Shown here piece by piece: positions 8,211 through 29,670 of a DNA stretch of 29,692 bases (position 1 is its first letter; every line of letters begins with the position of its first letter). The notes beneath the pieces are model-generated. The model was given only the letters and a program-made list of their open reading frames with translations, made no database searches and was not told the DNA's origin. This DNA comes from a virus. Location of the stretch: positions 1 to 29,692 of the IMG/VR virus record IMGVR_UViG_3300042567_000625; one strand, given 5' to 3'. Position numbers and translations under genes: made by a program.

Positions 8211-8227
8211 CAAAGTAAATTCTCAGT

Positions 8228-8253: not shown

Positions 8254-8261
8254 CGTTGGCG

Positions 8262-8269: not shown

Positions 8270-8276
8270 CATTACT

Positions 8277-9371: not shown

Positions 9372-9372
9372 T

Positions 9373-10826: not shown

Positions 10827-10832
10827 ATTACA
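10816..10832. promoter_or_regulatory. 17-bp perfect palindrome over the -10 box, possible operator
   Basis: TGTAATATAATATTACA consists of two perfectly complementary 8-bp arms around a central A. It encloses the TATAAT of the promoter at 10798-10826, where a bound repressor would block polymerase. The arms are AT-rich and there is no U-tract, so it is not a typical terminator. Operator function is inference. Confidence 0.5.
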
Positions 10833-10854
10833 ATACACACACAAAGAGGACTCT

Positions 10855-10983
10855 ATGGCATCATCCCTCTCTAAACACTCTGCAGTCATCAAACTTGCTA
10901 CCTATATAAAGGAGACTAGAGATGGCAAAATATCTTTCAACAAAAACTTACGGCAACGACCGCGGACTTTCATGCTGTTTTAG
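10855..10983 (+). CDS. Possible 42-residue leader ORF upstream of and overlapping queD
   Basis: An ATG at 10855 follows an AAGAGGA ribosome site and opens a frame of 42 codons ending in TAG at 10981-10983. It overlaps the first 62 bp of the queD-like gene in another frame. The queD ribosome site (AAGGAGA, near 10909-10915) therefore lies inside this small ORF, so its translation could couple to or control queD. The AGAGG of its own ribosome site (10845-10849) can pair with CCTCT at 10866-10870. The peptide (MASSLSKHSAVIKLATYIKE at its start) matches no family I know. It could be a leader peptide, a small protein or chance. Confidence 0.4.
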   Translation: MASSLSKHSAVIKLATYIKETRDGKISFNKNLRQRPRTFMLF

Positions 10984-11446
10984 ACAGTGGAGAAGTACAC
11001 ATAGTCACTGCTCATTACTACACGGATACTCAATCGGTATCAAATTAATTTTCGAATCAGAAACCTTAGACGACCGCAATTGGGTCATGGATTTCGGCGG
11101 CCTCAAAGCGTTTAAAGAGTGGTCAGAGTGGCAGTTTGATCATACTACTGTAATGGGCAGTGATGATCCTCATCTAGAAAAGTTCAAAGAACTGGCTAAG
11201 TTAGGCAAGCAAGCAGAAGGCGGTGTACTGGATCTACGTATTGTAGAAGCAGTAGGTTGCGAAAAGTTTGCTGAGTTGGCTTATCGAACTATGAACGAAA
11301 TCCTAGAAGCATACAAAGAAGGTCGAGGTTGGACACATCCAGACGGTCGTGTGTTTGAAGCACGTTATCCTGTTGGTCAAGGTGTCAACCTTCGCAGTGC
11401 TGAAGTATTTGAACACGCTGGCAACTCGGCAATTTATGAGGCCTAA
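10922..11446 (+). CDS. queD: 6-carboxytetrahydropterin synthase-like protein (QueD/PTPS family, divergent)
   Basis: QueD converts dihydroneopterin triphosphate to 6-carboxytetrahydropterin on the way to 7-deazaguanines (queuosine in tRNA, or modified phage DNA). The 174-residue protein has HSHCSLLHGYS (27-37), with the catalytic Cys (C30) four residues before His34 as in E. coli QueD (C27, H31). It also has WVMDFGGLK, the catalytic FDHTT, VGCEKFAELAY and a final EVFEHAGNSA with the substrate-binding Glu. The usual HGH zinc pair is HGY here, a trait shared with a bacterial subfamily I recall, so zinc binding and exact reaction are uncertain. It is longer than E. coli QueD (about 120) through a middle insertion. 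A good AAGGAGA site precedes the ATG. No queC, queE or folE is in the window. Confidence 0.82.
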   Translation: MAKYLSTKTYGNDRGLSCCFRQWRSTHSHCSLLHGYSIGIKLIFESETLDDRNWVMDFGGLKAFKEWSEWQFDHTTVMGSDDPHLEKFKELAKLGKQAEGGVLDLRIVEAVGCEKFAELAYRTMNEILEAYKEGRGWTHPDGRVFEARYPVGQGVNLRSAEVFEHAGNSAIYEA

Positions 11447-11604
11447 TGAAAAGGCTTTGGCGTTTATGGGCTAAAGCACTAGGTGAAAAATCAGGTGCTA
11501 CTGATCGAGAAGCTGATTCAGTAGCACTTGTTCGTACAGTTATCATACTGACCTATATTATCACAAACCTGTTTATTATCGCTGGTGTCATTAGACATTG
11601 GTAA
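11446..11604 (+). CDS. Small single-pass membrane protein, conserved in T4-like phages
   Basis: A 52-residue ORF starting inside the queD stop codon (TAATG overlap). The first 30 residues are soluble and charged ([20 protein letters not shown], then [10 protein letters not shown]), followed by one hydrophobic segment of about 17 residues ([19 protein letters not shown]) and a short RHW tail. The basic N-terminus suggests that it stays in the cytoplasm. I recall near-identical layouts (KRLW...KALGE...READ...NLFIIA..IRHW) as a common small ORF in aquatic T4-like phages. Function is unknown. The stop is 8 bp before the kdsA ATG. Confidence 0.8.
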
Positions 11605-11612
11605 ATAATAAT

Positions 11613-12440
11613 ATGCGTACATTTAATATCAACCAACTTACTATCAGTAATAACTTACCGTTTGTTCTTATTGCTGGTCCGTGTCAAATAGAAAGTCAGG
11701 CCCATGCAGAAGACACCTGTGCCAGACTTATTGCTATCACAGCATTGCTGGGCATTCCTCTAATCTACAAAAGTAGTTTTGACAAAGCTAATCGTTCTAG
11801 TATTAGCACTAAACGAGGTGTTGGCATTGAAGAAGGATTACAGATTCTCAATACCATCAAGCACACTTTTGGAGTGCCTGTTTTAACAGATATTCACGAA
11901 AGTTATCAAGCACGAGAATGTGCTGATGCAGGTATTGATATATTACAAATACCTGCGTTCTTATGTAGACAAACTGATCTATTGTTAGCAGCTGGAGAAA
12001 CTGGCTGTGCAATCAATGTCAAGAAGGGTCAATTTCTTGCACCTCACGATATGAAAAATGTTGCGGCAAAGATTGCCTCAACGGGCAATGAACGAATTAT
12101 GTTATGTGAAAGAGGATACACTCATGGATACAATAATCTTGTGGTTGACATGCGCAGTCTACCTATTATGGCAAGCACTGGCTATCCAGTGGTCTTTGAT
12201 GCCACACATTCTGTTCAACAGCCTGGGGGAATGGGAGAAAGATCTGGAGGAGATAGGACCATGGTCCCGTACTTGGCGAGAGCTGCTGTAGCTACAGGAT
12301 GTGTGTCTACACTGTTTATGGAATGTCACGAAGATCCAGATAACGCACCCAGCGATGGACCCAACATGATCAAGCTAGACGACCTCAGCGATATTTTAAA
12401 AGACCTGGTAGCCATAGATGAAATTGTCAAAAGAAGATAG
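11613..12440 (+). CDS. kdsA: 3-deoxy-8-phosphooctulonate synthase (KDO-8-P synthase), metal-dependent type
   Basis: KdsA condenses phosphoenolpyruvate with arabinose-5-phosphate to KDO-8-phosphate, the first committed step to KDO. The 275-residue protein carries the full set of family motifs in order: IAGPCQIES (20-28), [80 protein letters not shown] and SDGPN. C24 in IAGPC matches the metal-binding Cys of the class II enzymes (Asn in E. coli), and the other expected ligands His, Glu and Asp lie in THSVQ, FMECH and SDGPN. The ATG at 11613 is chosen over a TTG at 11598, which would overlap the membrane protein gene. It overlaps the next gene by 23 bp. Confidence 0.96.
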
Positions 12441-13242
12441 AGCTGGTTGGTCTAAAGAACAAAGACGGTTTTATAAAGCAAATGGGTATCCCATGCCGTC
12501 TGCAGTAATCGGTGAATCACCACCCGCCGATCATGATCCTAACACAAAAATTACAGTTCTCTGCGTGAGATTCGGCAACAAGTACGGTCGTGAATACGTA
12601 GAACGCCTGCGTAACATGGTTGCAAGGCATCTCACAGTTCCTTATGAATTTGCCTGCCTCACTGACGATCAACACGACATCCCCGGAGTACGTAAAATAT
12701 ATCAACCCAATGCCAACTATGCTAGAGGATGGTGGCACAAGGTTCACATGTTTGATTCTGCCTTACCTCTCAGAGGAAGAATACTCTATCTCGATCTCGA
12801 TGTGGTCATTCATGCCAATATGAACAAGCTCACAGGATATCATCCCAACAGCTTTATAGGTATTCACGATTTCAACAGAAAATTTTTCCCCAGTTGGAAC
12901 TATCTCAACAGCTCAGTGTTAGCATGGACTCACGGAACTCAAAGCCATATCTTTAATCAGTTCAAACTCAACCCATCAGAAGCTCAACGGCTGCAAGGAG
13001 ATCAAGATTGGATTTGGAAAATAGCTAAAGATAGAATGACGTTTTGGCCTAGAGATTGGATTATGAGTTACAAATGGGAGATTCGAAGCAGAGACGAGCT
13101 CACAGTGGCTCAAGGTAGAAGGCAGTTCAAAACGGTAAGACACGATGTTCGACCACCTCCAGAATGCAGTATTGCGGTATTTCATGGTGAACCAAATCCG
13201 CAGGATGTTCAGGATAAATTTGTAGTTGACAACTGGCGGTGA
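12418..13242 (+). CDS. Phage glycosyltransferase, GT-A type with DxD motif
   Basis: A 274-residue protein starting inside the 3' end of kdsA. Residues from about 45 look like a GT-A nucleotide-sugar fold: ITVLCVRFG, a CLTDD turn, WWHKVHMF, then [10 protein letters not shown] with the metal-binding DxD at D126 and D128. Later motifs are NSSVLAW, GDQDWI (194-199) and FHGEPNP (about 255-261), where His256 would complete the metal site as in GT8-like enzymes. Similar proteins are common in aquatic phages. Direct overlap with kdsA suggests that it works on a KDO-containing glycan or another surface sugar, but donor and acceptor cannot be read from sequence. Confidence 0.82.
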
Positions 13243-13254
13243 TGATGTTATACT
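13226..13254 (+). promoter_or_regulatory. Near-consensus sigma-70 promoter
   Basis: TTGACA (13226-13231), a 17-bp spacer and TATACT (13249-13254; one mismatch). The upstream stop codon (13240-13242) is in the spacer. The predicted start is at about 13261, which is exactly the A of the next ATG, so the first gene would be read from a leaderless mRNA. Confidence 0.85.
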
Positions 13255-13260
13255 TGTAGT

Positions 13261-13491
13261 ATGACATTTACTACACACCAAAGTCAAATTCGCACAATCA
13301 AACAAGACGATCCCCGTTTTCGTATCGTTGACAAGTTTGTCACTACTCCTAGAGCAGGGTTTGAGATAAGTGAAAAATGCCCGGCTGAATATCAAAAGAT
13401 TTTGTATGAGTGTTGGGGCAATGGGTGGATTCAGCCTGTGGCCTATATGACAGAACGTGAACTTCTTATTTCAGGATTATCAAATGGTTAA
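13261..13491 (+). CDS. Small conserved phage protein, function unknown
   Basis: A 76-residue protein with a recognisable block THQSQIRTIKQDDPRFRIVD followed by APRAG-like TTPRAGFEIS and CPAEYQKIL, ending with GWIQPVAYMTERELL. Similar small proteins occur widely in T4-like aquatic phages without known function. The ATG lies only 7 bp past the -10 box of a strong promoter and has no room for a ribosome site if transcription starts at the usual distance. No good downstream start exists before residue 63. It overlaps uvdE by 8 bp. Confidence 0.7.
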   Translation: MTFTTHQSQIRTIKQDDPRFRIVDKFVTTPRAGFEISEKCPAEYQKILYECWGNGWIQPVAYMTERELLISGLSNG

Positions 13492-14548
13492 ACGCATAGG
13501 CTTTGCCTGCAAATGGATCAATGATCCTTCCGAAGTCGACGGCATGAAAATCAACGCTCGAGACCGTGAACTCAACACAGGTTCAACTACTGTGGCTTGG
13601 TTGAAGCGGCAGACTGCTGACGTAGCAGAGCAGAGATTATGGGATCTCATGGTAAGAAACATCGAATCAGTTCGCAAACTTGTAGAAAGAGTAGGTACAT
13701 TAGATGATGAACTTCGCATGGTCCGTATTGGCAGTGATGTGCTGCCTGTTTATACTGAGCGTAATTACAGCTGGTTTTGGCGTCAAAGCCATGTGGTTGC
13801 ATATGCCCAACAGCATTTTGCTGAGGTGGGGCGTATTGCTCGAGATCGTGGTGTTCGTCTCAGTTTCCATCCTGGCCAGTTTACTGTATTGGCATCTGAT
13901 AATCCCGATATTGTTGATCGTAGCATAGAGGAGTTTGAATATCATGTGGACATGGCTCGCTGGATGGGATTTGGTAAAACATTTCAAGACTTTAAAATCA
14001 ATGTACATATCGCCGGTCGACAAGGCCCCGACGGTATCCGTCGTGCTTTGGCACGGATGACTCCCGAAGCTAGAAACTGTCTTACTATTGAAAACGACGA
14101 AATGACCTGGGGCATAGAGCACAGCATTGAATTAGTCAAAGACTGTGCGCTGGTCATGGACATACACCATCATTGGATTAAAACTGGAGAATATATTGAA
14201 GCAACTGACGACCGTGTTAAAAGGATTATTGATAGTTGGCGTGGCGTTCGCCCTGTGTTACATTATAGTGTATCACGGGAAGACTGTCTTATTGACCATC
14301 CCGGACACATCCGCCCCGATCTTCCGTCCCTCTTAGAGCAGGGCTACAAAAAAGCCAAGCTGAGAGCACACAGTGAATTCTATTGGAACACAGCCGTAAA
14401 TGAGTGGGCACTGAGCTTTAGAGACCAATTCGACATCATGTGCGAAAGCAAGGCCAAGAACTTGGCCTCATTTGCTCTACACGATCAAGACAAAACTGTT
14501 AAACAGTTTTTGGCTTGCGAGGAGCCTTCGGCGCTGGTGCTTTCTTAG
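13484..14548 (+). CDS. uvdE: UV damage endonuclease UvdE/UvsE
   Basis: UvdE nicks DNA immediately 5' of UV photoproducts (cyclobutane dimers and 6-4 products) and starts an alternative excision repair. The 354-residue protein (from ATG 13484, preceded by a CAGGA site; an upstream GTG at 13457 is rejected) is a TIM-barrel metal enzyme. Visible metal-site motifs are LSFHPGQF (126-133, His129), NVHIAG (His175), ENDE (203-206) and DIHHHW (226-231), then HYSVSRED. Bacterial UvsE is about 280-330 residues, so this one carries an extra C-terminal stretch. It overlaps the convergent minus-strand gene by 50 bp. For a phage in sunlit water it protects genomes after infection. Confidence 0.93.
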   Translation: MVKRIGFACKWINDPSEVDGMKINARDRELNTGSTTVAWLKRQTADVAEQRLWDLMVRNIESVRKLVERVGTLDDELRMVRIGSDVLPVYTERNYSWFWRQSHVVAYAQQHFAEVGRIARDRGVRLSFHPGQFTVLASDNPDIVDRSIEEFEYHVDMARWMGFGKTFQDFKINVHIAGRQGPDGIRRALARMTPEARNCLTIENDEMTWGIEHSIELVKDCALVMDIHHHWIKTGEYIEATDDRVKRIIDSWRGVRPVLHYSVSREDCLIDHPGHIRPDLPSLLEQGYKKAKLRAHSEFYWNTAVNEWALSFRDQFDIMCESKAKNLASFALHDQDKTVKQFLACEEPSALVLS

Positions 14549-14735
14549 CAGGCGCTTTCTTAGCAGGCGCTTTCTTAGCCTTAGCTACCGCTACTGCTTT
14601 GTTTTCAGCAGTAACTTCGGCAGTGTCTTTGACTACCACTGGCGGTGCTTCAACTACCGGAGTTTCTACCTTGTAGGGAACTTCGACAGGTTCGGCTGGT
14701 TTAACTCCAAACATTTTTTTCAATAATCCTAGCAT
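14499..14735 (-). CDS. Lys/Ala/Pro-rich small basic protein (histone H1-like tail)
   Basis: A 78-residue minus-strand gene with a perfect AAGGAG ribosome site 9 nt before its ATG and a TATAAATA box further upstream, so it is real although its 3' end overlaps uvdE. The N-terminus is a short amphipathic stretch (MLGLLKKMFGVKPAEP), the middle is Val/Glu/Pro-rich, and the last 28 residues are KKAPA repeats (KKAPAKKAPAKKAPAPKAP). Such basic tails resemble histone H1-like or DNA-compacting proteins. Binding DNA, or being packaged, is a reasonable inference but unproven. It is one of only two minus-strand genes here. Confidence 0.82.
   Translation of the reverse strand: MLGLLKKMFGVKPAEPVEVPYKVETPVVEAPPVVVKDTAEVTAENKAVAVAKAKKAPAKKAPAKKAPAPKAPRKPKTV
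14536..14580 (-). repeat. 15-bp tandem repeat, three copies, encoding KKAPA units
   Basis: Three adjacent copies of GGYGCTTTCTTAGCM on the plus strand (14536-14550, 14551-14565, 14566-14580), differing at two positions in total. They encode Ala-Lys-Lys-Ala-Pro units in the minus-strand basic protein. In-frame unit length allows expansion or contraction. Confidence 0.9.
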
Positions 14736-14744
14736 ATTAAAAAT

Positions 14745-14750
14745 CTCCTT
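14745..14750 (-). promoter_or_regulatory. Strong ribosome binding site for the minus-strand basic protein
   Basis: AAGGAG on the minus strand, 9 nt from the ATG at 14735. It supports this small overlapping gene as genuine. Confidence 0.85.
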
Positions 14751-14756
14751 GTAGGT

Positions 14757-14764
14757 TATTTATA
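14757..14764 (-). promoter_or_regulatory. TATAAATA late-promoter box, minus strand
   Basis: Exact octamer on the minus strand (TATTTATA on the plus strand), 21 nt before the ATG at 14735. With T4 spacing, transcription would start at about 14751, directly before the AAGGAG site, which is the compact leader layout of T4 late genes. Confidence 0.65.
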
Positions 14765-14765
14765 C

Positions 14766-14773
14766 GGTAAATA
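14766..14773 (+). promoter_or_regulatory. GGTAAATA late-promoter-like box, plus strand
   Basis: Lies 2 bp from the minus-strand TATAAATA box and forms with it an inverted repeat TATTTA-N5-TAAATA (14757-14773). It ends 5 nt before the dismutase ATG at 14779. As the preceding gene is on the other strand, this 43-bp gap should contain the dismutase promoter unless uvdE transcription reads through. Confidence 0.5.
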
Positions 14774-14778
14774 CAAGC

Positions 14779-15336
14779 ATGGCATACAAATTCATACAAA
14801 AATTCATAGTTGAGGGTCGTAAAGACAAACTAATCCAACTGACCTTGCCCTATGCCGATGACGAGCTTGCGCCAGTAAAAAGCAAAGCAACTATAGATTA
14901 TCACTACGGTACACTGTACAAAGCCTATGTTGATCGATATAATAAAGGCGAGGGCGATGCGGACTTCAACGAAGCGGGTGCTTTTTTACACAATATATAT
15001 TTTGCTCAATTAAAACAGCCCGAGGGATCTAATAGGCCCTATGATGCTATTTTACAATTTATAGAAAAACATTTCAAAACTTTCGATTCATTTAAAAGCG
15101 AGTTTGAAAAGAAAGCCATGAAGATACAGGGCAGCGGATGGGTGTATCTGGCCAGAGACGGAGAAATCAAAACCATTGTTAATCACGAAGTTAGGAACGA
15201 TATTGTACTATTGATAGATTGGTGGGAACACGCTTGGGCGTTGGACTATCAGGCAGATAAAAAAAGCTATCTATCCAACGCATGGAAGATAATCGATTGG
15301 AGGATAATAAATGGCGTACTCGGACAAAGTAATTGA
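14779..15336 (+). CDS. Iron/manganese-family superoxide dismutase
   Basis: The enzyme converts superoxide to O2 and H2O2. The 185-residue protein shows the family landmarks: LPYADDEL near residue 23, YHYGTLYKAYV (41-51) with ligand H42, FLHNIYF with ligand H71, GSGWVYL (118-124), and the signature DWWEHAWALDYQ (147-158) with ligands D147 and H151, then a WKIIDW end. All four metal ligands are present. The N-terminal Gln of Fe-type enzymes is missing, and the C-terminal tuning position appears to be His (NHE, H136) in place of the Gln of Mn-type enzymes, a variation known in some SOD subgroups. Second-shell HH of YHYGKHH is LY here. It overlaps iscU by 26 bp, making one cassette with iscU and iscA. 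Cytoplasmic; no signal peptide. Confidence 0.88.
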   Translation: MAYKFIQKFIVEGRKDKLIQLTLPYADDELAPVKSKATIDYHYGTLYKAYVDRYNKGEGDADFNEAGAFLHNIYFAQLKQPEGSNRPYDAILQFIEKHFKTFDSFKSEFEKKAMKIQGSGWVYLARDGEIKTIVNHEVRNDIVLLIDWWEHAWALDYQADKKSYLSNAWKIIDWRIINGVLGQSN

Positions 15337-15697
15337 CCATTACGAAAATCCACGCAATGTAGGGTCGTTTGCTAAAGATGACCCAACAGTAGGCACAGGT
15401 ATGGTAGGTGCTCCAGCGTGTGGTGATGTAATGAAACTACAGATAAAGGTAGACGATGATACAGGTATTATTACAGATGCAAAATTTAAAACGTATGGCT
15501 GCGGATCGGCTATCGCGAGCTCGAGCCTCGTTACAGAGTGGCTCAAAGGAAAAACCCTCGACGAAGCAGGAACAATCAAAAACTCCAAAATCGCCGAAGA
15601 GTTAGCCCTACCCCCAGTTAAGATACATTGTTCAATTCTAGCAGAAGATGCTATCACCGCAGCCGTAAATGATTATCGTAACCGACACAGCAGCTAA
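15311..15697 (+). CDS. iscU: Iron-sulfur cluster scaffold protein IscU
   Basis: IscU is the scaffold on which [2Fe-2S] clusters are built from sulfur delivered by a cysteine desulfurase (IscS). The 128-residue protein has all cluster ligands: C37 in GAPACGD with D39, C64 in YGCGSAIASSS, and C107 in KIHCSI with H106. The LPPVK motif (100-104), which the HscA chaperone recognises, is intact, implying use of the host ISC machinery. N-terminal DKVIDHYENPRNVGSF is typical. Full length compared with E. coli IscU (128). It overlaps both neighbours (26 bp with the dismutase, 29 bp with iscA), so expression is tightly coupled. No iscS or hscA is in the window. Confidence 0.96.
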   Translation: MAYSDKVIDHYENPRNVGSFAKDDPTVGTGMVGAPACGDVMKLQIKVDDDTGIITDAKFKTYGCGSAIASSSLVTEWLKGKTLDEAGTIKNSKIAEELALPPVKIHCSILAEDAITAAVNDYRNRHSS

Positions 15698-16344: not shown

Positions 16345-19300
16345 ATGGCAAGAAAGACTATTGATATTGGTGTTGTCGGTAATGACGGCACCGGAGACAG
16401 TATAAGAGATTCATTCCGTAAAGTCAATGACAACTTTAGAGAACTTTACAGCTCACTAGGGCTCGGCGAAAGATTAAAATTCACCGGGCTTGAAGACGCC
16501 CCAGCTACCTATGTAGGGCAAAATGATCCAGCTACTGGAAATACCCCAGTAGTCACTGTGAACAACACTGAGTCAGGGCTGGCATTTAAAAAACTTATCG
16601 CTGGTTCTGGTATCAGTATTGATTTTACCACTAACCCCAACGAAATATCTATCAACGCAGACTTTGCTGAAATTGTAGCAGACACTACTCCCCAATTAGG
16701 TGGTGACTTATCAATGCGTTCCGGGGGAAATCAATATCGTATATTTGATGCTGGAACTGCAATTACTCCGCTGGAACCTATATTTTCAACAGAATTAGTC
16801 AACAAAAACTATGCCGATTCTAAAATTTCCAGAGCGGGGGTTAATGCTATTGATCCTACCACAGGAACAGTAGACGTTAGTTTCGGACGCATGAGCGGAC
16901 CGTTGATCTTATCAAGAAGTCCAGAACCAGATGATGACGAGTTGTACGGAGGCTTGATTGCAGCCACAAAACAATACGTAGACAGTTCAGCGTTCGGCAG
17001 CAGTGTGAATCTTTATGTAGCACTAAGTGGTGAGGATGATCGTCCTGGTGTGTCACCAGCTCTACAAGGTAGAGCGTTGGCCTATGCCTATCGCACACTT
17101 GAAGCGGCGCTGAAACGTGCTGAAGAATTAGTGTTAGATTCACGACCAATTATCGGTCCTTATGAAAAGACCCTAACGTTTAATAATGGTGTATCAGAAT
17201 GCTCACTGACTTCTGTGGATACCTCTCCTATATCAGGTACAGGATTTGCAGGAACTGTGCGGATGAGCGTAGACACCGCAACGTTGGTCAGTGTTGGCAC
17301 AAACTATTATGCTGGAGATATATTACAAATTGCAGGCGGTACAGTAGCATCGGGCGGTAGTGCTTGTTTTATTGAAGTATTATCAACACTAACTACTCCT
17401 GGAGCTATTGTAACATTTAGAATTATATCAACTGGGGTGTATTCTGCACTGCCCGGTGCAACCGCTGTGTCGACCACAATCAGCACCAGTGCTGCACCAG
17501 TAGGTATTGGTGCGATCGGTGCTGGTGCTACATTCAATCTTACCTACAAGGTCGGTTCAGTTTCTATATCTAACGGAGGCACAGGATACAGTTTGGTGTC
17601 TGTGAGAATAACCGGTGGTGGTGGCACAGGAGCATTTGGCACAGCCGTGGTTACCGCAGGTGTTATCACCAGTGTGACTATCACCGATAAAGGAGCGGGC
17701 TTCGTCAGCTTACCTACCTTTATAGTTGATCTTCCTAGATTCTTGATATCCACTGCTGGACTGCGTACAGACTTTACTGGTGATGTTACAACATCAACTC
17801 CGGAAGCTATTAGGGGACGAGACATCAGAGAAGGTCTGTTTCTGCGCGGTAAGACCAGCGGAGCATTGGCACAGATTCTTAACCATTCTGGTGCATTAGA
17901 TAGCAACGGAAATGAGATATTCGATGTGGATATCATCTACGGTACTTTTCAAATCGGTGAAAGCATAACCTACGGTGACATCGCAAGAAATATACAGATT
18001 AGTATATTAGTAGAAAGCGGCGAATACTATGAAAACTATCCATTAAGAGTTCCGCCTAACGTCAGCGTGGTAGGAGATGAATTCCGCCGAGTGATATTTA
18101 GACCTCGACCAGGAACCTCAGCCAGTCCATGGGCTTTCCAAAAGTTCCGCAGAGATAGAACTATCGGTAATCAGGATACCATACGTCAGGTCTACAATGA
18201 CACAACTGGCGAATGGGGTCCGCAGAATTTGATACCTGATCAGTTAACTCTTGCACAGGTAGAGTACGGATATCATTATCTGCAAGATATCACAGAACCA
18301 GTTTATCCCAAGATACAAAACAAAGGAGCATACGAATCTGCTGCTGATTTAATAAGATTGAATAGAACGTTTCTTCAAGAAGAAATTGTTGCAAGAATAG
18401 ATTTCAACAAAATCAATAGCGTATCCCCGTTCAGTCCAACTTTCACATACAACAGGAATTTTTATAAACGCAGTATTGGACAATTAGTTGATGATTTAAC
18501 TTTCGATCTCGACCGTGGCGGATATAATAGAACCATTTCTAATGCGCTGAAATATTATCAAAACGATGTTGGAACACTTGTGATAACCACACAGCTGTCA
18601 CAGTATCTGGCCGTGATAGATCTGTTCAATACCCTAGTACAGGCCATTATAGATAACACTGCAATCACAGGGTTGAAACAAACTCTGTTTTTCCAAACAA
18701 TCGATCCTGCGTTTCAATCAGAGGTAGGTTCAGATGCTGTTATAGTGCTGTTGATTGATGCATTTAAAGATGTTATAGACGGATCTGGTTCAGTAAACTA
18801 TCCTTTAGAAAACGAAGAAATGGATGTGTTCTTGGCCAACGACACTGTGCGTTGGCAGGCTATATCAGCTATAGGACACGGCGGGTTCATGGGAGTATTG
18901 GATCCTACAGGTCAGATATTGTCCAGATCTCCTTACTTCCAAGAATGTGCTTCGTTCAGCCGCAGCCAAGATCGTCAGGTGTTTGCAGGTGGTATGTTCA
19001 CTGACGGCTTTTCGGGCAACCTTGAATTCAACATAGATGCAGTGATCTCACCGACAAGATTAGAAGTTAGTGATCTTGACAGATTTCCACAACTGCCAGC
19101 ATCGTTTATTGTTTTTGACAGTGTATATAGAATTAACTATGTCAGAGACTTTGTCTACGATAAAGACGGCAGTACAGCTACATTTATCTTAGACGAAACA
19201 ACACCATGGCCATTTACAGTATTCACATTCAACTCTTCTGCTTGCAGCAGAGACACTGGGTTAATCCTTGACGGATTAGGTCGAGATATTGTATTGAATA

Positions 19301-22300: not shown

Positions 22301-23886
22301 TCTATCTAGAACGTCGATTAGGATTAACTCATGACGGTGCTGTTGTTGGTGTAGGTCAATTAATACCTACTATCACTGGCGGCTACATGGCCCTTGATGG
22401 GCAGTTGGGCATGAAAGCATCAATGAATCTTAACAACAATAAGATCACTAATGTTACAGACGCAACTGATCCGCAGGATGCTCTCAATCTTAGAAGTTTT
22501 ACTTTAAGTAATTTCCAAAACTGGGCCGGTGGCAATGTGCAGGGCGGTCAGTTCATGGTGTTCACAGGTGTTGGCAATACTGTGATCAACGCCAGCGTAA
22601 CTGGTGATTTAACTTTTGATCTACGCACAGGCACAGACTCTACACTGAACAATGTAGACGTGCAGTTGAATGCGGGCGTGGTTAACAATGCAGAAGTGAA
22701 TGCTGCCGCGGCTATTGAGCAGAGCAAGTTGAACATGACTATCGCTGCTACTCAGTCAGCGGCACCGACAGGAACAGCTGCCGTGATACAGGCAGCTAAT
22801 GGACTCAGCAGTTTCAACAGTGCAGATTTCGTAGTTACCAACGGATACGTGACACTCAAGGCCAACTCGGTACAGTTAGCTGATCTTGAGCAGATGGCCC
22901 CTGACACACTGATAGGTAACAGTGGCATAAGCACAGCTAATGCCGCCGCAGTGGCATTTACCACTGTGGTCGACGAAGGCTTGGCTATCAAGAAATCGCA
23001 GTACAGCAGTGCAGGATTCTTACGTAGAACTGGTGCAGCGACAGCGTCGGATGCCAATTATGTCATGGTGGCGGGATCTTCTGGATCAAGTTCAAGTACT
23101 GGTAATGGCGAAGTCATCGTTAGAGACGGCAGTGGAGATTTTGGCGGAAGAACCATAGACGTTCAAAACATCAAGATAGACGCTAACTTGGCCATAGATA
23201 CTGTTAGTACCACAGCCACAGACGGATACATTAGATATTACGGTTTTGATTCAGCTGGTGGTATATTAATACAAACTGCTTCGGCTACTCCAGCTAATAG
23301 AAAAACCGCATACTGGAATAACTTCCATGAATTCAAAACGCAGAACGGTGTATCTGATGCACCTATAACCTGCTCTACAGTAACAGCGACTTCTATACAG
23401 GTTCAGACATTGACCACCGGTGGTAATACCACAGCTGGTACTATAACTGGTCGCTGGACCTTAAGCGGTACATCACCAAACGAATCAAGACTACAGGCCA
23501 CATACTCCGCTGACCTTGCAGAATACTACGAAGGTGACAAAGAGTACGAAGTGGGGACTGTATTGGTGTTTGGCGGCGACAAAGAAGTCACTGTTACTAA
23601 CACACAGAGCGACAACCGTGTGGCTGGTGTTGTTTCTAATACTGCTGCGTTTGCCATGTACGAAGGGTGTCCAGGACTTAAGAACCTAGTAGCCCTACAA
23701 GGTCGTGTGCCATGCCGGGTAGTAGGAAAAATACGTAAAGGAGAAATGCTTGTGACTTCAAAGATTCCAGGCGTTGCTGTAGCAGGCGGAAACGATATCA
23801 AGGTTGGAACTGTGGTAGGTAAAGCACTGGTAGACTATGACAGTGATCACATTGGCACAATTGAAATAGCTGTGGGGAGAACATAA
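16345..23886 (+). CDS. Giant tail-fibre/virion structural protein, 2513 residues
   Basis: One uninterrupted frame of 7.5 kb. Residues 1-38 are a module shared with other proteins here (IDIGVVGNDGTGDSIRDSF, then KVNDNF). About 100-180 is a collar-like part (TTPQLGGDLSMRSGG), and from about 220 there is a SVNLYVALSGEDDRPG block. About 600-1100 holds helical segments (ESAADLIRLNRTFLQEEIV, RSIGQLVDDLTFDLDRGGYN, DTGLILDGLGRDIVLNTNYW) recognisable from very large structural proteins of cyanophage-type myoviruses. The middle to C-terminal part is beta-rich Thr/Ser/Gly repeat-like fibre. The last 128 residues (from YSADLAEYYEGDKEYEVGTV, about 2386) resemble C-terminal chaperone/autocleavage domains of phage fibres. 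Stop and next start overlap (TAATG). It is probably a long tail fibre or baseplate-attached adhesin. Confidence 0.85.
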   Translation: MARKTIDIGVVGNDGTGDSIRDSFRKVNDNFRELYSSLGLGERLKFTGLEDAPATYVGQNDPATGNTPVVTVNNTESGLAFKKLIAGSGISIDFTTNPNEISINADFAEIVADTTPQLGGDLSMRSGGNQYRIFDAGTAITPLEPIFSTELVNKNYADSKISRAGVNAIDPTTGTVDVSFGRMSGPLILSRSPEPDDDELYGGLIAATKQYVDSSAFGSSVNLYVALSGEDDRPGVSPALQGRALAYAYRTLEAALKRAEELVLDSRPIIGPYEKTLTFNNGVSECSLTSVDTSPISGTGFAGTVRMSVDTATLVSVGTNYYAGDILQIAGGTVASGGSACFIEVLSTLTTPGAIVTFRIISTGVYSALPGATAVSTTISTSAAPVGIGAIGAGATFNLTYKVGSVSISNGGTGYSLVSVRITGGGGTGAFGTAVVTAGVITSVTITDKGAGFVSLPTFIVDLPRFLISTAGLRTDFTGDVTTSTPEAIRGRDIREGLFLRGKTSGALAQILNHSGALDSNGNEIFDVDIIYGTFQIGESITYGDIARNIQISILVESGEYYENYPLRVPPNVSVVGDEFRRVIFRPRPGTSASPWAFQKFRRDRTIGNQDTIRQVYNDTTGEWGPQNLIPDQLTLAQVEYGYHYLQDITEPVYPKIQNKGAYESAADLIRLNRTFLQEEIVARIDFNKINSVSPFSPTFTYNRNFYKRSIGQLVDDLTFDLDRGGYNRTISNALKYYQNDVGTLVITTQLSQYLAVIDLFNTLVQAIIDNTAITGLKQTLFFQTIDPAFQSEVGSDAVIVLLIDAFKDVIDGSGSVNYPLENEEMDVFLANDTVRWQAISAIGHGGFMGVLDPTGQILSRSPYFQECASFSRSQDRQVFAGGMFTDGFSGNLEFNIDAVISPTRLEVSDLDRFPQLPASFIVFDSVYRINYVRDFVYDKDGSTATFILDETTPWPFTVFTFNSSACSRDTGLILDGLGRDIVLNTNYWTRQNGITYRLSQSGVVLQDQRAITIEAIEFVHDTVNDLITAYPDIQDTVDLSNISIADVLSRGLSAVPTLSFTLPASVSVDVTSAYNLLLNNRDYAVAEILGWIANEISTPTAPFTSLDIFIAGEIEFQARQAVEAVIHDVIYGGNVATRTRALKFYNNLTGAVITDSGLSQAKTAAWHTYLNYLLGQVVQNLNPATSYSGVSRSTGTAATATEAATINTLMTAMSSIIGAADFTAAQAVVAITEPSFVGYTANNIAVRNIIQTNRATLQTSTVAFVEFNGNRYELLMPGNRSMLCNDFTQINDLGYGIVVANGGLTEAVSMFTYYCHIAYYSVTGGQIRSVAGSNAHGNFALVAEGADPLEVPTPSTIYEEFSQRIDCYFPSGSFANVAGGLLIFVTNYEYTPLGGSELEVLHPTTNSIYRYPVTSVTTTDLPPGVARLNLSTGTGSATEGLFAVVADGTKMTLRLSSVILLTGGLENVAVRPSTGLKLRETLDTVYRVLEFNSYVDSNGPYEVLFNTATPTRYKVLVTITTIASNVCTTSGNHKLRIGDRIIPTSTANNFVSGTTYYVRTQPTYNTFTVSTSPSGSTFTLADGSGLTIKAAKSHKLLEGYTVNFSVSDGGALPAPILAGQIYYVLPNNLTETDFSVSTQLNGTALSITTAGSGTHRYNLAGLTLTQTRENYNYIDITVIQPGEFVTSTPTGTTCTISIADPAEVTLNSHGFVAGDVIKFTTTGALPTGISMLNRYFVLSAGLGVNSFRISAQLGGDAVETTGTQSGVQKVGKVTGSAGDTIFAVVAISQTEISRTQGSKFVYLGEEYIINTYQPEAVTNGPFGRVILNRPLVNGINNLDSAYTIKSAVPIRSSGSLGTLTIRISLTRVTGHDLLEIGTGSYADTNYPKEIYGASVNPLNPANEVQERDVGRCFYVTTDQFGNFSVGPYFRVDQGTGQVTFSSSIALSNLDGIGFKRGVPVSEFSTDSGFIDNAIDTVPTENATRIYLERRLGLTHDGAVVGVGQLIPTITGGYMALDGQLGMKASMNLNNNKITNVTDATDPQDALNLRSFTLSNFQNWAGGNVQGGQFMVFTGVGNTVINASVTGDLTFDLRTGTDSTLNNVDVQLNAGVVNNAEVNAAAAIEQSKLNMTIAATQSAAPTGTAAVIQAANGLSSFNSADFVVTNGYVTLKANSVQLADLEQMAPDTLIGNSGISTANAAAVAFTTVVDEGLAIKKSQYSSAGFLRRTGAATASDANYVMVAGSSGSSSSTGNGEVIVRDGSGDFGGRTIDVQNIKIDANLAIDTVSTTATDGYIRYYGFDSAGGILIQTASATPANRKTAYWNNFHEFKTQNGVSDAPITCSTVTATSIQVQTLTTGGNTTAGTITGRWTLSGTSPNESRLQATYSADLAEYYEGDKEYEVGTVLVFGGDKEVTVTNTQSDNRVAGVVSNTAAFAMYEGCPGLKNLVALQGRVPCRVVGKIRKGEMLVTSKIPGVAVAGGNDIKVGTVVGKALVDYDSDHIGTIEIAVGRT

Positions 23887-25604
23887 TGCCTTTTAATACA
23901 AATATAATTCCAGGTCGTGCTCCTATATTGTGGAGTGAAGTTAATGACGCTTTTGTAAAAGTAAATGAAAATTTTGACATACTTGTAGCAACCATCGGGA
24001 GCGGCAGTGGGCTAACTCCTATAGATTTTACTTCGCTGGACACCGACCTTACTCCCACTACAGATAATTTACGCAGTCTCGGTGACACTACACACAGATG
24101 GCAATCAGTGTTTACTTCAGAACACACAACATCTAACCCGTTAAACGGAGTATGGACGGGCGATGCACAAATCAAAGGTGTGGGGTATACTGTTAATCTA
24201 CCAGAAAATTCCACTGTTGGTGGAGATCCGCTCACTGGCATTGGTACCAGTTTAATCATAGATCCCGACAAAACATTCTTTAAAGAAATACAGGTTAATA
24301 ATGATCTGTCTGTGGTAGCAACAACATTCGGCGACACAGTGAATTTCTTACCAGGCGCAGGTGTTGGGCTTTCTGTGAGTTCAGGGGCTGACTCGATTAC
24401 ATTCTCAAACACGGGCATACTAAGTGTATCAGCCGGTACTGGTATTACAACTGCTACAGTTAGTGGAGTGGCCACAGTAACTAATGCAGGAGTTCGCAGT
24501 CTACAGAGTACCACTGCACTGCCTTCAGGCAGAACCACAGGTGCAGGTATTAACATTACTGGGTCAACTGGCGACAATCTCCGAATCACCAACGCAGGCG
24601 TGATTAGTATTTCATCTGGTGTGGGTATCACCGTATCCGCTGATGCTGCCACAGGCGACGTAACTATCACAAACTCAGCTCCTGCTGTTAATGCATTTAC
24701 ACAAATTCAAGTTGACGGTGATACCATAAACAGATTACAAGCTGACGCTGTCAGTGACGTACTTAATATCAACGGCGGACAGGGCATTACATTATCTAAA
24801 ACTGTCGGAACAGACACACTGACCATTGCAGTTAATCCAGTGTTTGATTTGAAAGGTTCAGTGTTTGGTGACGATTCAACTAAAATTATTGACGCTGTAG
24901 AAAACAAAGTCTATGGCGGAATATTTGCAACAACATTAAGAACAGAAGAAACTAAAATTGCTCTTGGTGCAAGTGCTGGCAGTATTACTCAAGGCAATAA
25001 TGCCACCGCAGTTGGATGGCTGGCGGGTTACAACAATCAAGGCACAGCCGCTGTGGCATTTGGACGAGAGTCTGGAGAAATTAATCAAGGACAATATGCT
25101 GTTGCTGTTGGGCCAGGAGCTGGTTATACCGGGCAAGGTGCGGATGCTATAGCCATTGGTTATAATGCTGGTGCAACTTCACAAGGCGCATCTGCAGTGG
25201 CAATTGGTTCTATTGCTGGCCAAACCAGCCAGTCTGCAAATAGCATTGTTATTAATGCCAGCGGGGTTGCACTCAACGGCGCAGCAGCTGGTTTCTATGT
25301 AAATCCAATACGTTCAACTGCCAACGGTAGACCGTTGATGTATGATACATCAACTAAGGAATTGTTCTCTAGTAACGTACTAGAATTTATCGGCAGCACT
25401 ATTAGCACCAGCGACTCCAGCGGATTGACGGTGGATGTACAAACAACATTCAACACCGATGTTACTATAGAAAACGATTTAGATGTAACTCAACGATTGC
25501 GTGTGCAAGGTAGCAGAGTTATTAATATAACAGAATTACAAACCATTGTGGCGGCAAGTGCAGATTTTGCTGCATTTAAAACAGCAATAGCAGCATTGGC
25601 ATAA
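23886..25604 (+). CDS. Fibre/adhesin protein with YadA-like head repeats
   Basis: A 572-residue protein starting inside the stop of the giant gene. The N-terminus (WSEVNDAFVKVNENFDIL) is a divergent copy of the docking module of the neighbouring fibre genes. Residues about 40-360 are beta-rich and low in Cys, with repeated SAGTGIT and GAGINITG segments. Residues 367-462 are six 16-residue repeats of the form xxQGxxAVAIGxxAGx, as in the left-handed beta-roll heads of trimeric autotransporters. Then come GFYVNPIRSTANGRPLMYD, a block common in aquatic phage fibres, and a helical end. It is likely a trimeric distal fibre that contacts the host surface. It has no autotransporter membrane anchor and no signal peptide, as expected for a virion protein. 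Confidence 0.82.
   Translation: MPFNTNIIPGRAPILWSEVNDAFVKVNENFDILVATIGSGSGLTPIDFTSLDTDLTPTTDNLRSLGDTTHRWQSVFTSEHTTSNPLNGVWTGDAQIKGVGYTVNLPENSTVGGDPLTGIGTSLIIDPDKTFFKEIQVNNDLSVVATTFGDTVNFLPGAGVGLSVSSGADSITFSNTGILSVSAGTGITTATVSGVATVTNAGVRSLQSTTALPSGRTTGAGINITGSTGDNLRITNAGVISISSGVGITVSADAATGDVTITNSAPAVNAFTQIQVDGDTINRLQADAVSDVLNINGGQGITLSKTVGTDTLTIAVNPVFDLKGSVFGDDSTKIIDAVENKVYGGIFATTLRTEETKIALGASAGSITQGNNATAVGWLAGYNNQGTAAVAFGRESGEINQGQYAVAVGPGAGYTGQGADAIAIGYNAGATSQGASAVAIGSIAGQTSQSANSIVINASGVALNGAAAGFYVNPIRSTANGRPLMYDTSTKELFSSNVLEFIGSTISTSDSSGLTVDVQTTFNTDVTIENDLDVTQRLRVQGSRVINITELQTIVAASADFAAFKTAIAALA
24984..25271 (+). repeat. Six 16-residue YadA-like repeats (48-bp period)
   Basis: Codons from 24984 encode consecutive 16-residue units such as INQGQYAVAVGPGAGY, TGQGADAIAIGYNAGA and TSQGASAVAIGSIAGQ. 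The protein repeat is regular but the DNA copies have diverged; the last unit is degenerate. Confidence 0.85.
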
Positions 25605-25616: not shown

Positions 25617-28600
25617 ATGGCAAAACAGAATATCAACGTAGGTACCGCAGCTAACGACAAGAAAGGCGATAGCCTACGAGCTGCGTTCCAAAAAGTCAAT
25701 GCTAACTTTACAGAACTCTACGAAGCGGTAGGGCTTGCACCAGCAGCTGATCAAGATACCACACTGACATTTTTAGGCAGCACGATCAGCACAGACGACA
25801 GTTCAAGTATTGTTATTGATCGTGCAACCACCATAACCAGCAACCTGTCAGTGGGTGGGAACATTGTACCACAGACTGCCAATGGTGGCGATCTAGGCTC
25901 AAGCACACTGCCTTGGCGCAGTCTTTATGTCAGCGGATCAACCATCTATCTTGGCAATGCTGCATTAAGCGTTGACGCTAACGGTGAACTTTTAATAAAC
26001 AATAATCGCATACTCCAGGACAACGGAAATTATATCAGTTTAAATTTAAATGTAAATGATGTACAGGTCAGCGATCTTCAAGTTGGGGATACCTTACAAT
26101 GGGCAGGCGGCTTTTGGGTTAATGGTCCTAATGGTGGCGGTGGTGGTTCAACCTTGGTCAACGGTGCCAACACAGTTAGGCTTGAATCAACTGGTGCATT
26201 AACATTACCAAACGGTTCTACTATAGGTGACGGTGAAGCTGGCTCTGGTGTCCCAATAACCACAGCCCGTGGCACAATATTGTTGGGCAACCTAGCAGAG
26301 TGTGCAGGCGGGGAAAGTCATTTCCACATAATGAAAGGCGGCCAGCAGGCCATTGATTTGTTCTTGGGCGATGACAGCAACTATGTGAAACTTCCAGACA
26401 CTGGTGGGGTTGAAATAGCCACACAAAATTTCAATCAATATTCTTGGATCTTTGGCACAGATGGTAATTTAACTATCCCAGGTGATATCCGCAGTGAAGG
26501 CAACATCAACATTGACATCAACCTGTCAGACTCAACTCTGCGTAGATGGAGTTTTGGTGAAGATGGAGATTTAACATTGGCCGGCAATATTGAATCCGCG
26601 GATGTGTTGGATATCACAGCCCAAAGTCAAATACGGTTAGTATCAAGAGACGACAATGTACAGATCAGAACCAACGCTACTTCGGAAGATACCTACATTT
26701 GGCAGTTTGGCTCAGATGGGGAGTTAACATTGCCTGGTGGTCGTACCCGTATTGGCACATTGCTGGGATCAGATGCTATTATAGCCAACGAGGACACAAC
26801 ATTTGCTGTTGTAACACAAGGAACAAATGGCGCAGGCGTACTGATATGGATAGAAGATTCAGAAAATTTTGGTACCAGTAATCTAGCGGCTGTATATATC
26901 AATCCAGAAGGTTCGAGAACTGTTAGGATAGCGACAGGTGCCAATGGCCCTGGCGGAGGACCCAAGTTCTGGACATTTAACGATGCTGGTGCGTTAACAT
27001 TCCCCCAAGGCACCACCTTTGCCACCACTGACGGAACAGGTGCATTTATCATAGACGGTGCTGCTGACAAAGATGTTCAAATATATACCTACAGTGGTGA
27101 TAATGCTCGCGGATGGACCTTTGGCACAGATGGTAGTTTACAAATCCCTGGTGATATCAAGAGCAACGGCAATATCAACATTGACATCAACCTTGCAGAC
27201 TCAACTCTGCGTAGATGGCAGTTTGGTGAAGATGGCAGTTTAAGATTACCTATTGGTGTGAGCATTGATGACAATGTTGACCCTCTGTATCCCAAGATCA
27301 TTGCAGACAGTGGCAAGCTATTCAGCATTCAGGGGCAAGGTAGCACTGGTTCTGCGGCATTGGCTTGGAGTGTGAATCCTAACGCTGATACCAAGTATGC
27401 GGCCGTAGGTGTTAGCCAAGGTGGTGGAGACAATCTTGCCAAGGTGGTCATGACGGCAGGAAATACAACTGCTACACTAAAAGTTTGGAAATTAGACGAA
27501 ACTGGAGTATTCACATTACCCACAGGCGGTACCATTACAGACAGCGGCAATTACATAAAACTTACACCGCCAACCGGCAGTGCCAATCAATCATTATTGA
27601 TTTACCCAACTGCGGGCGATGGCAATCACATACACTTGACAGCAGGTGGCGGCTCAACTGAACTGTATCTAGGCAATGACATTCACTATGTCAAGTTGGT
27701 CAACGGTGGTAATGTAGAAGTAAGAGCCAATAACGGCGTAAACGATGCGGCTTGGACATTTGGCACAGATGGTAAACTGTCATTACCCAACAACGGTAAG
27801 ATTGCCAGTGGTGTTAGCACAGCACAGGTTGGTTCCACAACAACTATTGCACTCAATGACCAGGGCACTGATCAGGCTTCCGATGTTACCTATTTGGGAA
27901 TAGCCTGGACTGGCAACGAATCTGTGTTTACCACATATGCGGCAGGCAGCACAATCACTTTCGCCAATGGTGATGTAAGAACTATTAACGATATTCAGAA
28001 AAATGAAGTGTATGGTTCCCCAGGAGAATTTGTCATTGACATATACTGGTCAGCATCAAGAGCAAATCTCACAGCATTTCCAATCACGCTAAAGACCAGC
28101 AACTATGCGGCAGCTTATACAGCACCAGAATGGCAGTTTGGTACCAATGGTGATCTAGAGATTCCTGGTAATATCAAGAGCGAAGGCAACATTAACATCG
28201 ACATCAACCTTGCAGATTCAACACTGCGTAGATGGCAGTTTGGGGAGGATGGTGATCTTGAAACTCCGGGTGGTATACAGGTCGCAGGTATTCTCAAGAT
28301 AGACGACGGTGTACACGAAAAGTTTCAAACCAAAGCAGATGCCACAGGTATTGTAACACACGATTGTTCTCTAGGACATATATTCTATCACACCAGCCCA
28401 GATGCCCTTTTTACGGTAAACTTTACCAATTTAAATTTATCTAGTGGCTATGCTACCGCATTGACTTTGATAATAGTACAAGGCGGTACAGGCTTTATTC
28501 CCAACTCTGTTGGAATAGGTGGAGTAATACAAACCTTAAACTGGCAGGGCAATGTCACACCAACACCCAGCACCAACAGAACTGATGTGGTTACTTTTAG

Positions 28601-28658
28601 CATTATCTGCACAGCTACTGATACTTACACAGTGCTGGGACAACTGACAGGATTCTAA
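25617..28658 (+). CDS. Large tail-fibre protein with WxFGxDGxL repeats
   Basis: A 1013-residue protein preceded by a GGAGCG ribosome site. Residues 1-38 are the shared docking module (INVGTAANDKKGDSLRAAF, then KVNANF). The body contains many units built around WxFGxDGxLxxPG (at least seven, including variants), and three copies of a 47-residue unit beginning near residues 277, 500 and 839 that are nearly identical in protein and close in DNA. Between them lie beta-rich segments with SGNYIKLTPP and GGSTELYLGND. The end (from about 900, FQTKADATGIVTHDCSLGHIFYH) resembles a globular tip. Repeats of this kind form beta-helical or spiral fibre shafts. A small DUF1566-like gene follows 1 bp later and may be its tip partner. 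Confidence 0.84.
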   Translation: MAKQNINVGTAANDKKGDSLRAAFQKVNANFTELYEAVGLAPAADQDTTLTFLGSTISTDDSSSIVIDRATTITSNLSVGGNIVPQTANGGDLGSSTLPWRSLYVSGSTIYLGNAALSVDANGELLINNNRILQDNGNYISLNLNVNDVQVSDLQVGDTLQWAGGFWVNGPNGGGGGSTLVNGANTVRLESTGALTLPNGSTIGDGEAGSGVPITTARGTILLGNLAECAGGESHFHIMKGGQQAIDLFLGDDSNYVKLPDTGGVEIATQNFNQYSWIFGTDGNLTIPGDIRSEGNINIDINLSDSTLRRWSFGEDGDLTLAGNIESADVLDITAQSQIRLVSRDDNVQIRTNATSEDTYIWQFGSDGELTLPGGRTRIGTLLGSDAIIANEDTTFAVVTQGTNGAGVLIWIEDSENFGTSNLAAVYINPEGSRTVRIATGANGPGGGPKFWTFNDAGALTFPQGTTFATTDGTGAFIIDGAADKDVQIYTYSGDNARGWTFGTDGSLQIPGDIKSNGNINIDINLADSTLRRWQFGEDGSLRLPIGVSIDDNVDPLYPKIIADSGKLFSIQGQGSTGSAALAWSVNPNADTKYAAVGVSQGGGDNLAKVVMTAGNTTATLKVWKLDETGVFTLPTGGTITDSGNYIKLTPPTGSANQSLLIYPTAGDGNHIHLTAGGGSTELYLGNDIHYVKLVNGGNVEVRANNGVNDAAWTFGTDGKLSLPNNGKIASGVSTAQVGSTTTIALNDQGTDQASDVTYLGIAWTGNESVFTTYAAGSTITFANGDVRTINDIQKNEVYGSPGEFVIDIYWSASRANLTAFPITLKTSNYAAAYTAPEWQFGTNGDLEIPGNIKSEGNINIDINLADSTLRRWQFGEDGDLETPGGIQVAGILKIDDGVHEKFQTKADATGIVTHDCSLGHIFYHTSPDALFTVNFTNLNLSSGYATALTLIIVQGGTGFIPNSVGIGGVIQTLNWQGNVTPTPSTNRTDVVTFSIICTATDTYTVLGQLTGF
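26445..26585 (+). repeat. 141-bp fibre repeat, copy 1
   Basis: Encodes a 47-residue unit starting WIFGTDGNLTIPG with the core NINIDINLSDSTLRRW. Related copies lie at 27114-27254 and 28131-28271 in the same gene; long stretches of the DNA are identical. Confidence 0.88.
27114..27254 (+). repeat. 141-bp fibre repeat, copy 2
   Basis: Encodes WTFGTDGSLQIPG followed by NINIDINLADSTLRRW. Shares long identical DNA runs with copy 1 (about the ACATTGACATCAACC and CTCTGCGTAGATGG segments). Confidence 0.88.
28131..28271 (+). repeat. 141-bp fibre repeat, copy 3
   Basis: Encodes WQFGTNGDLEIPG followed by NINIDINLADSTLRRW. The core protein is identical to copy 2, with several silent DNA changes. Confidence 0.88.
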
Positions 28659-28659: not shown

Positions 28660-29052
28660 ATGCTAGGTTCATTCACAGGCTCATTTAAGTTTGGTCGCCG
28701 TCGATATCTCCCACTGCTGCCAGCAGGTTATGTTACTCTAGCTGGATTGACATGGGCGCCCATGACCACCGGTGGAACTTATGATCAAGCTCAAACCCAC
28801 GCCGCAAACTTCACAGGTCTAGGTTTTTCAGCAGGCACATGGCGAACGGCCACAGTTGCGGAAATTCAAAGTCTTGCATCAGTACTCAGTTATGCTGATG
28901 CTCAAAGTGTTTATGGGTGGGTATTTTCAAGTCATGCTTACAATATTTGGACTTCAGAGTCTGGGCGTGTTGTTAATTTTTTTACAGGGGCCAATGTCGG
29001 AACTGCAAATAGTAATCAATTCAATTTTTTAGTTTGCAAAACCCCTGCATAA
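28660..29052 (+). CDS. Small DUF1566/Lcl-like protein, putative fibre tip or receptor-binding protein
   Basis: A 130-residue protein 1 bp after the large fibre gene, with an AGGA ribosome site. A short basic start (MLGSFTGSFKFGRRR) leads to a domain with GTWRTATVAEIQSL, a stretch YGWVFSSHAYNIWTS and ending VVNFFTGANVGTANSNQF then FLVCK. This order (WRLPTxxEL, then a W-S/T-S segment, VVNFxxG and a Cys near the end) resembles DUF1566/Lcl C-terminal domains, which share the C-type-lectin-like or formylglycine-enzyme-like fold used by several adhesins. Its position after a fibre gene suggests receptor binding or a fibre tip. The fold assignment is from motif likeness only. Confidence 0.65.
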   Translation: MLGSFTGSFKFGRRRYLPLLPAGYVTLAGLTWAPMTTGGTYDQAQTHAANFTGLGFSAGTWRTATVAEIQSLASVLSYADAQSVYGWVFSSHAYNIWTSESGRVVNFFTGANVGTANSNQFNFLVCKTPA

Positions 29053-29094: not shown

Positions 29095-29670
29095 ATGACA
29101 ATTCAAACAATTAATATCGGCAATGTGGTAAATGATGGCCTAGGCGATGATCTACGCACCGCGTTCCAAAAGGTCAATGCTAATTTTACAGATTTAAGTG
29201 CTCAGCTAACTATCACTGCCACCAACGTTGGTGCAACTGGTGTGGGCGTTTTCAAAGAAAAAGTAGGTGCTGATCTAAAATTTAAAAAATTAGTGTCTGG
29301 CACAAAGATGCTGTTGAATGAAAACACCGACACTATCACTGTTAACAACACTGCTCCAGATGCTTTTATCAGAATAGACACAGATGCCGGAGTCATGCTG
29401 GCCAGTACATATCAACAGATCACCATGGCAGGAATAGCTGCTCCTGGATCAACAACCAGCAGAAAAGACATTGAAGTCACGGCTTTTGGATCTACTATAA
29501 GTTTTAAAACCATTGTTCCGGTTACAGACATACTAACTTCCTATGATTTCGGAACTATCACTGGATCATACACCAATGCCATGCAGGTAGCTCTACAATC
29601 TGCAAACATAGACTTTGGCACTGTTCTACTGCCTGGACGAATAGATATAGACTGTGGCACAATTGTTTAA
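29095..29670 (+). CDS. Small fibre-like structural protein with shared N-terminal module
   Basis: A 191-residue protein. The N-terminus (INIGNVVNDGLGDDLRTAF, then KVNANFTDL) is the clearest copy of the docking module found in the 16345 and 25617 genes. It is followed by a collar-like stretch (KFKKLVSGTKMLLNENTDTI, similar to the FKKLIAGSGISI part of the giant protein) and a beta-rich C-terminal domain of about 90 residues. It is short for a fibre, so it may be an adaptor, a capping protein or a fibre whose distal part lies in the next gene. Confidence 0.75.
   Translation: MTIQTINIGNVVNDGLGDDLRTAFQKVNANFTDLSAQLTITATNVGATGVGVFKEKVGADLKFKKLVSGTKMLLNENTDTITVNNTAPDAFIRIDTDAGVMLASTYQQITMAGIAAPGSTTSRKDIEVTAFGSTISFKTIVPVTDILTSYDFGTITGSYTNAMQVALQSANIDFGTVLLPGRIDIDCGTIV

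Follow-up and report, generated by a model that had tools for sequence, protein, structure and literature searches.

The window, by which we mean the whole virus record of 29,692 bases analysed here, carries on its forward strand a 1013-aa ORF with three internal repeats. The label of fibre gene in the original prediction is supported by residues 1-129 of this ORF, which hit phrog_677 (baseplate wedge tail fiber protein connector) with E 8.7e-14. A match of the same N-terminus to PF07880 (T4_gp9_10_N) was weak (20.7 bits, under the curated cut-off of 25), and no solved structure matching the 1013-aa protein was found. A structure prediction for 292 residues from window positions 26400-27275, run without an alignment, reached a pLDDT of 36 and was set aside. 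Part of the N-terminal segment recurs in the window as a 51-nt direct repeat (16392-16442, 25664-25714 and 29142-29192; identity 73-84%); in DNA, too, the docking motif is repeated among three fibre genes, and it may be a second joint at which whole fibres are swapped. The features of the fibre gene are as follows, with other records given by L numbers.

25617..28658, + strand: fibre gene, 1013 aa, with three repeats (ORF, translation, phrog_677 match)
25617..25733, + strand: N-terminal docking segment NDKKGDSLRAAFQKVNANFTELY, common to neighbouring fibre genes (51-nt direct repeat, weak T4_gp9_10_N match)
26445..26585, + strand: repeat copy A, the joint where L126 switches fibre
26484..26567, + strand: conserved core of copy A, repeat codons 14-41 (per-codon profile, synonymous codon match)
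26586..27113, + strand: cassette A-B, also in the L005 type (89% identical over 529 nt)
26700..26741, + strand: single W-x-F-G-x-D-G-x-L motif within cassette A-B
27114..27254, + strand: repeat copy B, whose upstream cassette has six downstream partners in 15 records
27153..27236, + strand: conserved core of copy B (per-codon profile)
27255..28130, + strand: cassette B-C, missing from the L170 type
27753..27794, + strand: single W-x-F-G motif within cassette B-C
28131..28271, + strand: repeat copy C
28170..28253, + strand: conserved core of copy C (per-codon profile)
28272..28658, + strand: C-terminal cassette past copy C, common to the L170 type (3 contigs) and partly to L191

The repeats begin at 26445, 27114 and 28131, as had been predicted, and each is in frame with ORF 25617-28658; their predicted spacings of 669 (A-B), 1017 (B-C) and 1686 nt (A-C) were confirmed as 223, 339 and 562 codons. 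The degree of identity had been overstated: copies described as near-identical agree at 113/141 (A-B, 80%), 101/141 (A-C, 72%) and 106/141 positions (B-C, 75%), the supposedly long identical runs reach at most 23 (A-B), 12 (A-C) and 20 nt (B-C), and each pair differs at 10-11 of the 47 residues. At the nucleotide level the three repeats are homologous rather than near-identical. Each copy is a composite, in which two W-x-F-G-x-[DN]-G-x-L motifs lie 102 nt from each other on either side of a core NIDINLxDSTLRR. A degenerate pattern for this core matched the window three times and none of 100 dinucleotide shuffles, so the repeats are not a product of chance. The start of cassette A-B is also present in three other contigs.

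Further features were noted around the fibre gene. A small ORF directly downstream (28660-29052) gave a sub-threshold match to Lcl_C (E 9.4e-5), a fold type that serves as the variable domain in retroelement systems. The fibre-like ORF upstream (23886-25604) had no Pfam or PHROG match; its translation contains a run of residues that we take to resemble YadA head repeats. Two adjacent structural ORFs, both matching the virion structural protein phrog_6002, share a 300-nt direct repeat (8638-8937 and 9488-9787, 71%), and short perfect tandem repeats with units in multiples of three lie at 93-132 (18 nt) and 14539-14579 (15 nt). The region beside the fibre cluster (455-15697) encodes thymidylate synthase, radical SAM, tryptophan halogenase, QueD-like, NifU-like and glycosyltransferase genes, together with a weak DAHP-synthase match.

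The element was collected from viral contigs by a protein search (best 80 of 158 confirmed stretches) combined with a degenerate pattern scan, which returned at least 183 ORF entries with the motif, corresponding to at least 90 non-redundant fibre genes and at least 119 copies. Among the matches listed, 42 ORFs were complete, and 29 of these held one copy, nine held two, three held three and one held six, so that repeat number varies from 1 to 6 among relatives, whereas an invariant number would have spoken against the original prediction. For 104 of the 119 listed copies both 120-nt flanks were available. The first W motif was present in 64 of these 104 copies and the second in all 104; with the first optional and the second constant, the conserved element spans approximately codons 14-46 rather than the full 141 nt. 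The repeat was also observed in two adjacent ORFs of one phage (L062; IMGVR_UViG_3300042485_001890; four matches in the record), which makes exchange between paralogous fibres possible too.

A family for this element was not found in Pfam or PHROG at E 0.01 or better with 62 members (best E 0.017 and 0.066), and the 36-residue core retrieved nothing, even with E allowed up to 1, from 50,697 phage records. In a genome collection it hit a single stretch, in an archaeon, which was taken as chance. Across 62 sequences the unit has 14 invariant columns and is predicted to form small beta hairpins (pLDDT 87). A fold search with the 53-residue unit against PDB and BFVD gave nothing at E 0.001; the top BFVD matches were proteins of uncultured tailed phages (E 0.004 and 0.03), and there was a weak structural match to gp37 of an Aeromonas phage (E 0.37).

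Conservation of the core extends to the DNA. Over core codons 14-41, identical residues share the same codon at a rate of 0.65, compared to 0.39 expected from the genes' own usage (computed on the 44 of 104 listed copies with unrelated flanks). A raised codon match was seen in single W motifs too, so the core is not unique in this. Cores within one gene were more alike than with shuffled gene labels (0.823 vs 0.778; 0 of 1000 shuffles); single W motifs were not (0.633 vs 0.642, reached by 412 of 500 shuffles). The likeness of cores within genes fits intragenic gene conversion or duplication, and some homogenisation is likely because the 87-nt core is more alike within genes. An origin of the three window copies by duplication inside their own gene only was rejected: over the 141 nt, same-gene pairs have a mean of 0.684 compared to 0.679 for all pairs, and the flanking cassettes are combined differently in other phages.

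We then compared what lies on either side of the copies. The 104 listed copies give 5,356 pairs, and in an ungapped comparison, in which pairs are not independent and an indel beside the repeat is scored as a break, 160 pairs had a flank at least 80% identical, with 142 of them one-sided and unrelated on the other flank. In 94 pairs only the upstream flank was shared (at least 80%, with less than 50% identity downstream), and in 48 the reverse was true; both flanks reached 80% in 13 pairs, and one reached 80% with the other intermediate in five. According to the per-codon profile, identity in pairs that share the upstream side drops to background at around codons 19-24 of the repeat and identity in pairs that share the downstream side begins at around codons 36-44; between them lies the core common to all copies. 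The cassette before A was found in 13 records with five downstream types (one record ends at the repeat), and one of the 15 records with the cassette before B ends just past the repeat. In L207, the pre-B cassette runs on beyond the first W motif, where unrelated sequence without the NIDINL core follows, an arrangement indicating that a single W motif can act as a joint.

The same one-sided pattern was seen between two strains. The alignment of L126 (IMGVR_UViG_3300002835_008495) with the window starts at 18283 and contains two differences in the 8,162 nt upstream of repeat A, 24 in the 141 nt of repeat A and 156 in the following 216 nt, the level of unrelated DNA, at which point the L126 contig stops. 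Read from this alignment, which covers 8.5 kb of the L126 genome, the pair represents a fibre switch at repeat A between almost identical phages. A donor search for the downstream cassette of L126 found none.

The original prediction had proposed that recombination between copies deletes in-frame blocks. Such events were sought as triples: two copies of one gene, the second further along than the first, and a single copy in another gene that has the upstream flank of the first and the downstream flank of the second. At a flank threshold of 0.7, eight triples were found over 21 listed multi-copy genes. One of them concerns the window. L170 joins the DNA preceding B to the DNA following C through one repeat, and since nt 1096-1621 and 2521-3039 of the window gene are adjacent in L170 (86.5% and 83.6% identity), the difference there is exactly the 339-codon block B-C. 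By this comparison block B-C is precisely absent from a relative, an observation that loss and gain would explain alike. An arrangement of the deletion type, which may reflect loss or gain, is seen for block B-C and not for A-B or A-C, as no window-like gene lacking the A-B or the A-C block was found among the relatives in the triple test.

Simple intragenic deletion between copies in one genome could on this basis be regarded as the main source of fibre length variation. The exact absence of B-C in L170, the same pattern in L026 compared to L054 and in L178 compared to L062, the eight triples and the range of copy number all speak for it. However, the triples stem from only five multi-copy genes (the window gene, L062, L174, L054 and L080), and L054 by itself accounts for four; the blocks A-B and A-C yielded no such case, and the pairs differ elsewhere. 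L170 is 84-87% identical to the window gene, differs from it at other places too and is also without most of nt 319-1095. The repeat of L026 is a hybrid, its 5' part following copy 1 of L054 (64 sites for, 2 against) and its 3' part copy 2 (40 sites for, 1 against), but beyond two blocks of 93% identity the two contigs are 70-80% identical or unalignable, which a recent deletion explains less well than exchange between phages. We therefore consider intragenic deletion unlikely as the main source. Of the predicted recombination between repeats, the role as a joint stands, given the L126 switch and the endpoint enrichment described below, and simple intragenic deletion as the main mode does not; in the arrangements compared, the commonest visible outcome is replacement by the cassette of another phage.

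An alternative explanation is that the repeats are merely a beta connector under purifying selection, with shuffling random and the repeats conspicuous as the sole alignable part. The hairpin prediction and the invariant columns agree with this, as does the finding that mosaic breaks occur everywhere. Endpoints of shared DNA (at least 95% identity over at least 100 nt) were located in 72 genes, all motif-bearing by selection, and 282 of the 375 unique endpoints fell outside the repeats, showing that the genes are mosaic throughout. A shared upstream flank was likewise followed by a break at 62% of other positions, compared to 87% at repeats, and for a shared downstream flank the values were 55% and 78%. 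The remaining 93 fell in repeats, compared to a mean of 35.2 after 1000 circular shifts (sd 5.8, max 54), a 2.6-fold enrichment. Because these endpoints require at least 95% DNA identity and the repeats are approximately 68% identical between copies, alignability of the repeats would hardly produce the excess. The codon match of the core, albeit raised in single W motifs as well, and the hybrid repeat of L026 likewise argue against a purely structural role, which we regard as quite unlikely. Single W motifs were enriched for endpoints at least as strongly per base (50 vs 12.1; sd 3.4, max 23). Enrichment at the repeats, taken together with the mosaicism and the W-motif enrichment elsewhere, indicates that the repeat is a favoured joint but not the only one; the W motif may be the joint of more general use.

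Every record is a metagenome contig, and short-read assemblers might have fused unrelated phages at a common repeat; L126 ends 216 nt past the repeat and L205 at the repeat, like assembly branch points. Exact shared runs within the window are, however, no longer than 23 nt, and the L126 repeat departs from that of the window at nt 4-5, 21 and 45-53, ahead of the longest shared run. Moreover, nine of the 15 arrangements (L005, L170, L178, L062, L028, L171, L010, L187 and L032) recur at 99.5% identity or more in contigs with different numbers in their names, which we take to be sample numbers, L170 in contigs of three samples; the other six, including L054, L026, L126/L009 and the window, are single-contig arrangements. 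Assembly chimeras are a very improbable source of the pattern. Least probable of all is a site-specific system (invertible or shufflon-like segments, or a diversity-generating retroelement), as could be imagined from the several cassettes that share one repeat and the small Lcl_C-like ORF just downstream, since the window contains no inverted repeat pair of 40 nt or more, no second copy of that ORF and no template/variable repeat pair with it, the 25 window proteins scanned (from a genome fragment) include no recombinase or reverse transcriptase family, and the joints are spread across the whole repeat rather than sitting at one nucleotide.

We consider it probable that the connector repeats act as joints for the exchange of fibre blocks among uncultured phages, mostly between phages and also through removal or addition of blocks. 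Against this reading stand the mosaicism outside the repeats, the enrichment at single W motifs and the hybrids, several of whose crossovers need more than one event: the L170 repeat has eight contradicting sites on its 5' side, and the L178 repeat has several sites found in neither parent. The repeat would be a short all-beta segment used over and over to connect otherwise unrelated modules of long fibre proteins, and its carriers a group of uncultured T4-like phages with a gp9/10-type N-terminus. T4-like phages are noted for active recombination. Conservation of the connector in protein, and in DNA to a degree that codon usage does not account for, would offer co-infecting phages a common in-frame homologous segment, co-infection being the presumed setting. 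Homologous, partly homeologous, recombination in or beside the connector would then leave a fibre that has its upstream part from one parent fibre and its downstream cassettes from a second. Should the same event take place within one gene that has two copies, or as an unequal exchange between two genes, a whole cassette would be removed or added. That the enzymatic route is homologous recombination between diverged repeats is suggested by joints that are scattered and copies that are hybrid. Cassette exchange would presumably alter receptor binding, and the resulting evolvability is probably incidental to the connector's structural role rather than a selected purpose.

A stronger version sees the core as a plug for exchange across the whole community, maintained in DNA as well as in protein, so that any cassette of the group fits any other in frame. 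The core would be homogenised by intragenic gene conversion and possibly favoured for keeping the fibre pool recombinable. The core codon match, the within-gene homogenisation and the spread over at least 90 genes are consistent with this reading, which is weakened by the raised codon match in single W motifs; we hold it to be doubtful. Exchange at a connector, as preferred here, provides a concrete sequence-level joint for fibre modules in uncultured aquatic phages, and the natural pair of the window and L126 makes a fibre switch visible. It becomes testable whether a conserved connector simply follows from fibre structure or is kept as a recombination joint, and the core pattern can serve as a marker to track fibre swaps in metagenome time series.

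The nearest precedent is the distal tail-fibre locus of T-even phages, at which Tetart et al. in 1998 reportedly described recombination between conserved motifs. The present case resembles that locus in that related phages would exchange adhesin modules with conserved motifs of a fibre locus as the region of homology; as there, the motif lies at the boundary between shared and unrelated sequence, and near-identical genomes carry differing fibre modules. In contrast to the T-even locus, the element here appears to have another sequence, without a Pfam or PHROG family at the E value given above, and sits between long cassettes along the gene, across many fibre genes of uncultured phages. An account of this repeat was not found in the literature searched, mostly outside subscription journals. 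The C-terminal modules of gp37 and gp38 are reported to be often shuffled (PMC3797505). Cryoconite phages have near-identical cores with alternative host-recognition modules attributed to recombination, but in the available text whole genes or islands vary, whereas here the joint is a defined repeat in one gene (PMC7468147). Recent domain exchange is reported to be common in tail fibres, and the available portion of that work does not include a reusable multi-copy connector as joint, 'linker' occurring 0 times in it (PMC10684548). Experimental evolution of cyanophage S-TIM4 yielded polymorphisms in a YadA-domain fibre that were ascribed to recombination between the gene's own identical stretches; as far as the available sections go, the exchange seen in the laboratory was short, local and within a single gene, compared to cassette replacement here (PMC6224464). 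Pelagimyophages, T4-like and aquatic, possess a hypervariable tail-fibre island, a host-recognition cluster whose variation is given as gene content, with 'recombination' occurring 0 times in the text available (PMC7029224). The modular fibre exchange described here is a real and well-marked case of a known kind, and it comes with a widespread connector outside the family libraries searched and an unusually clean strain pair.
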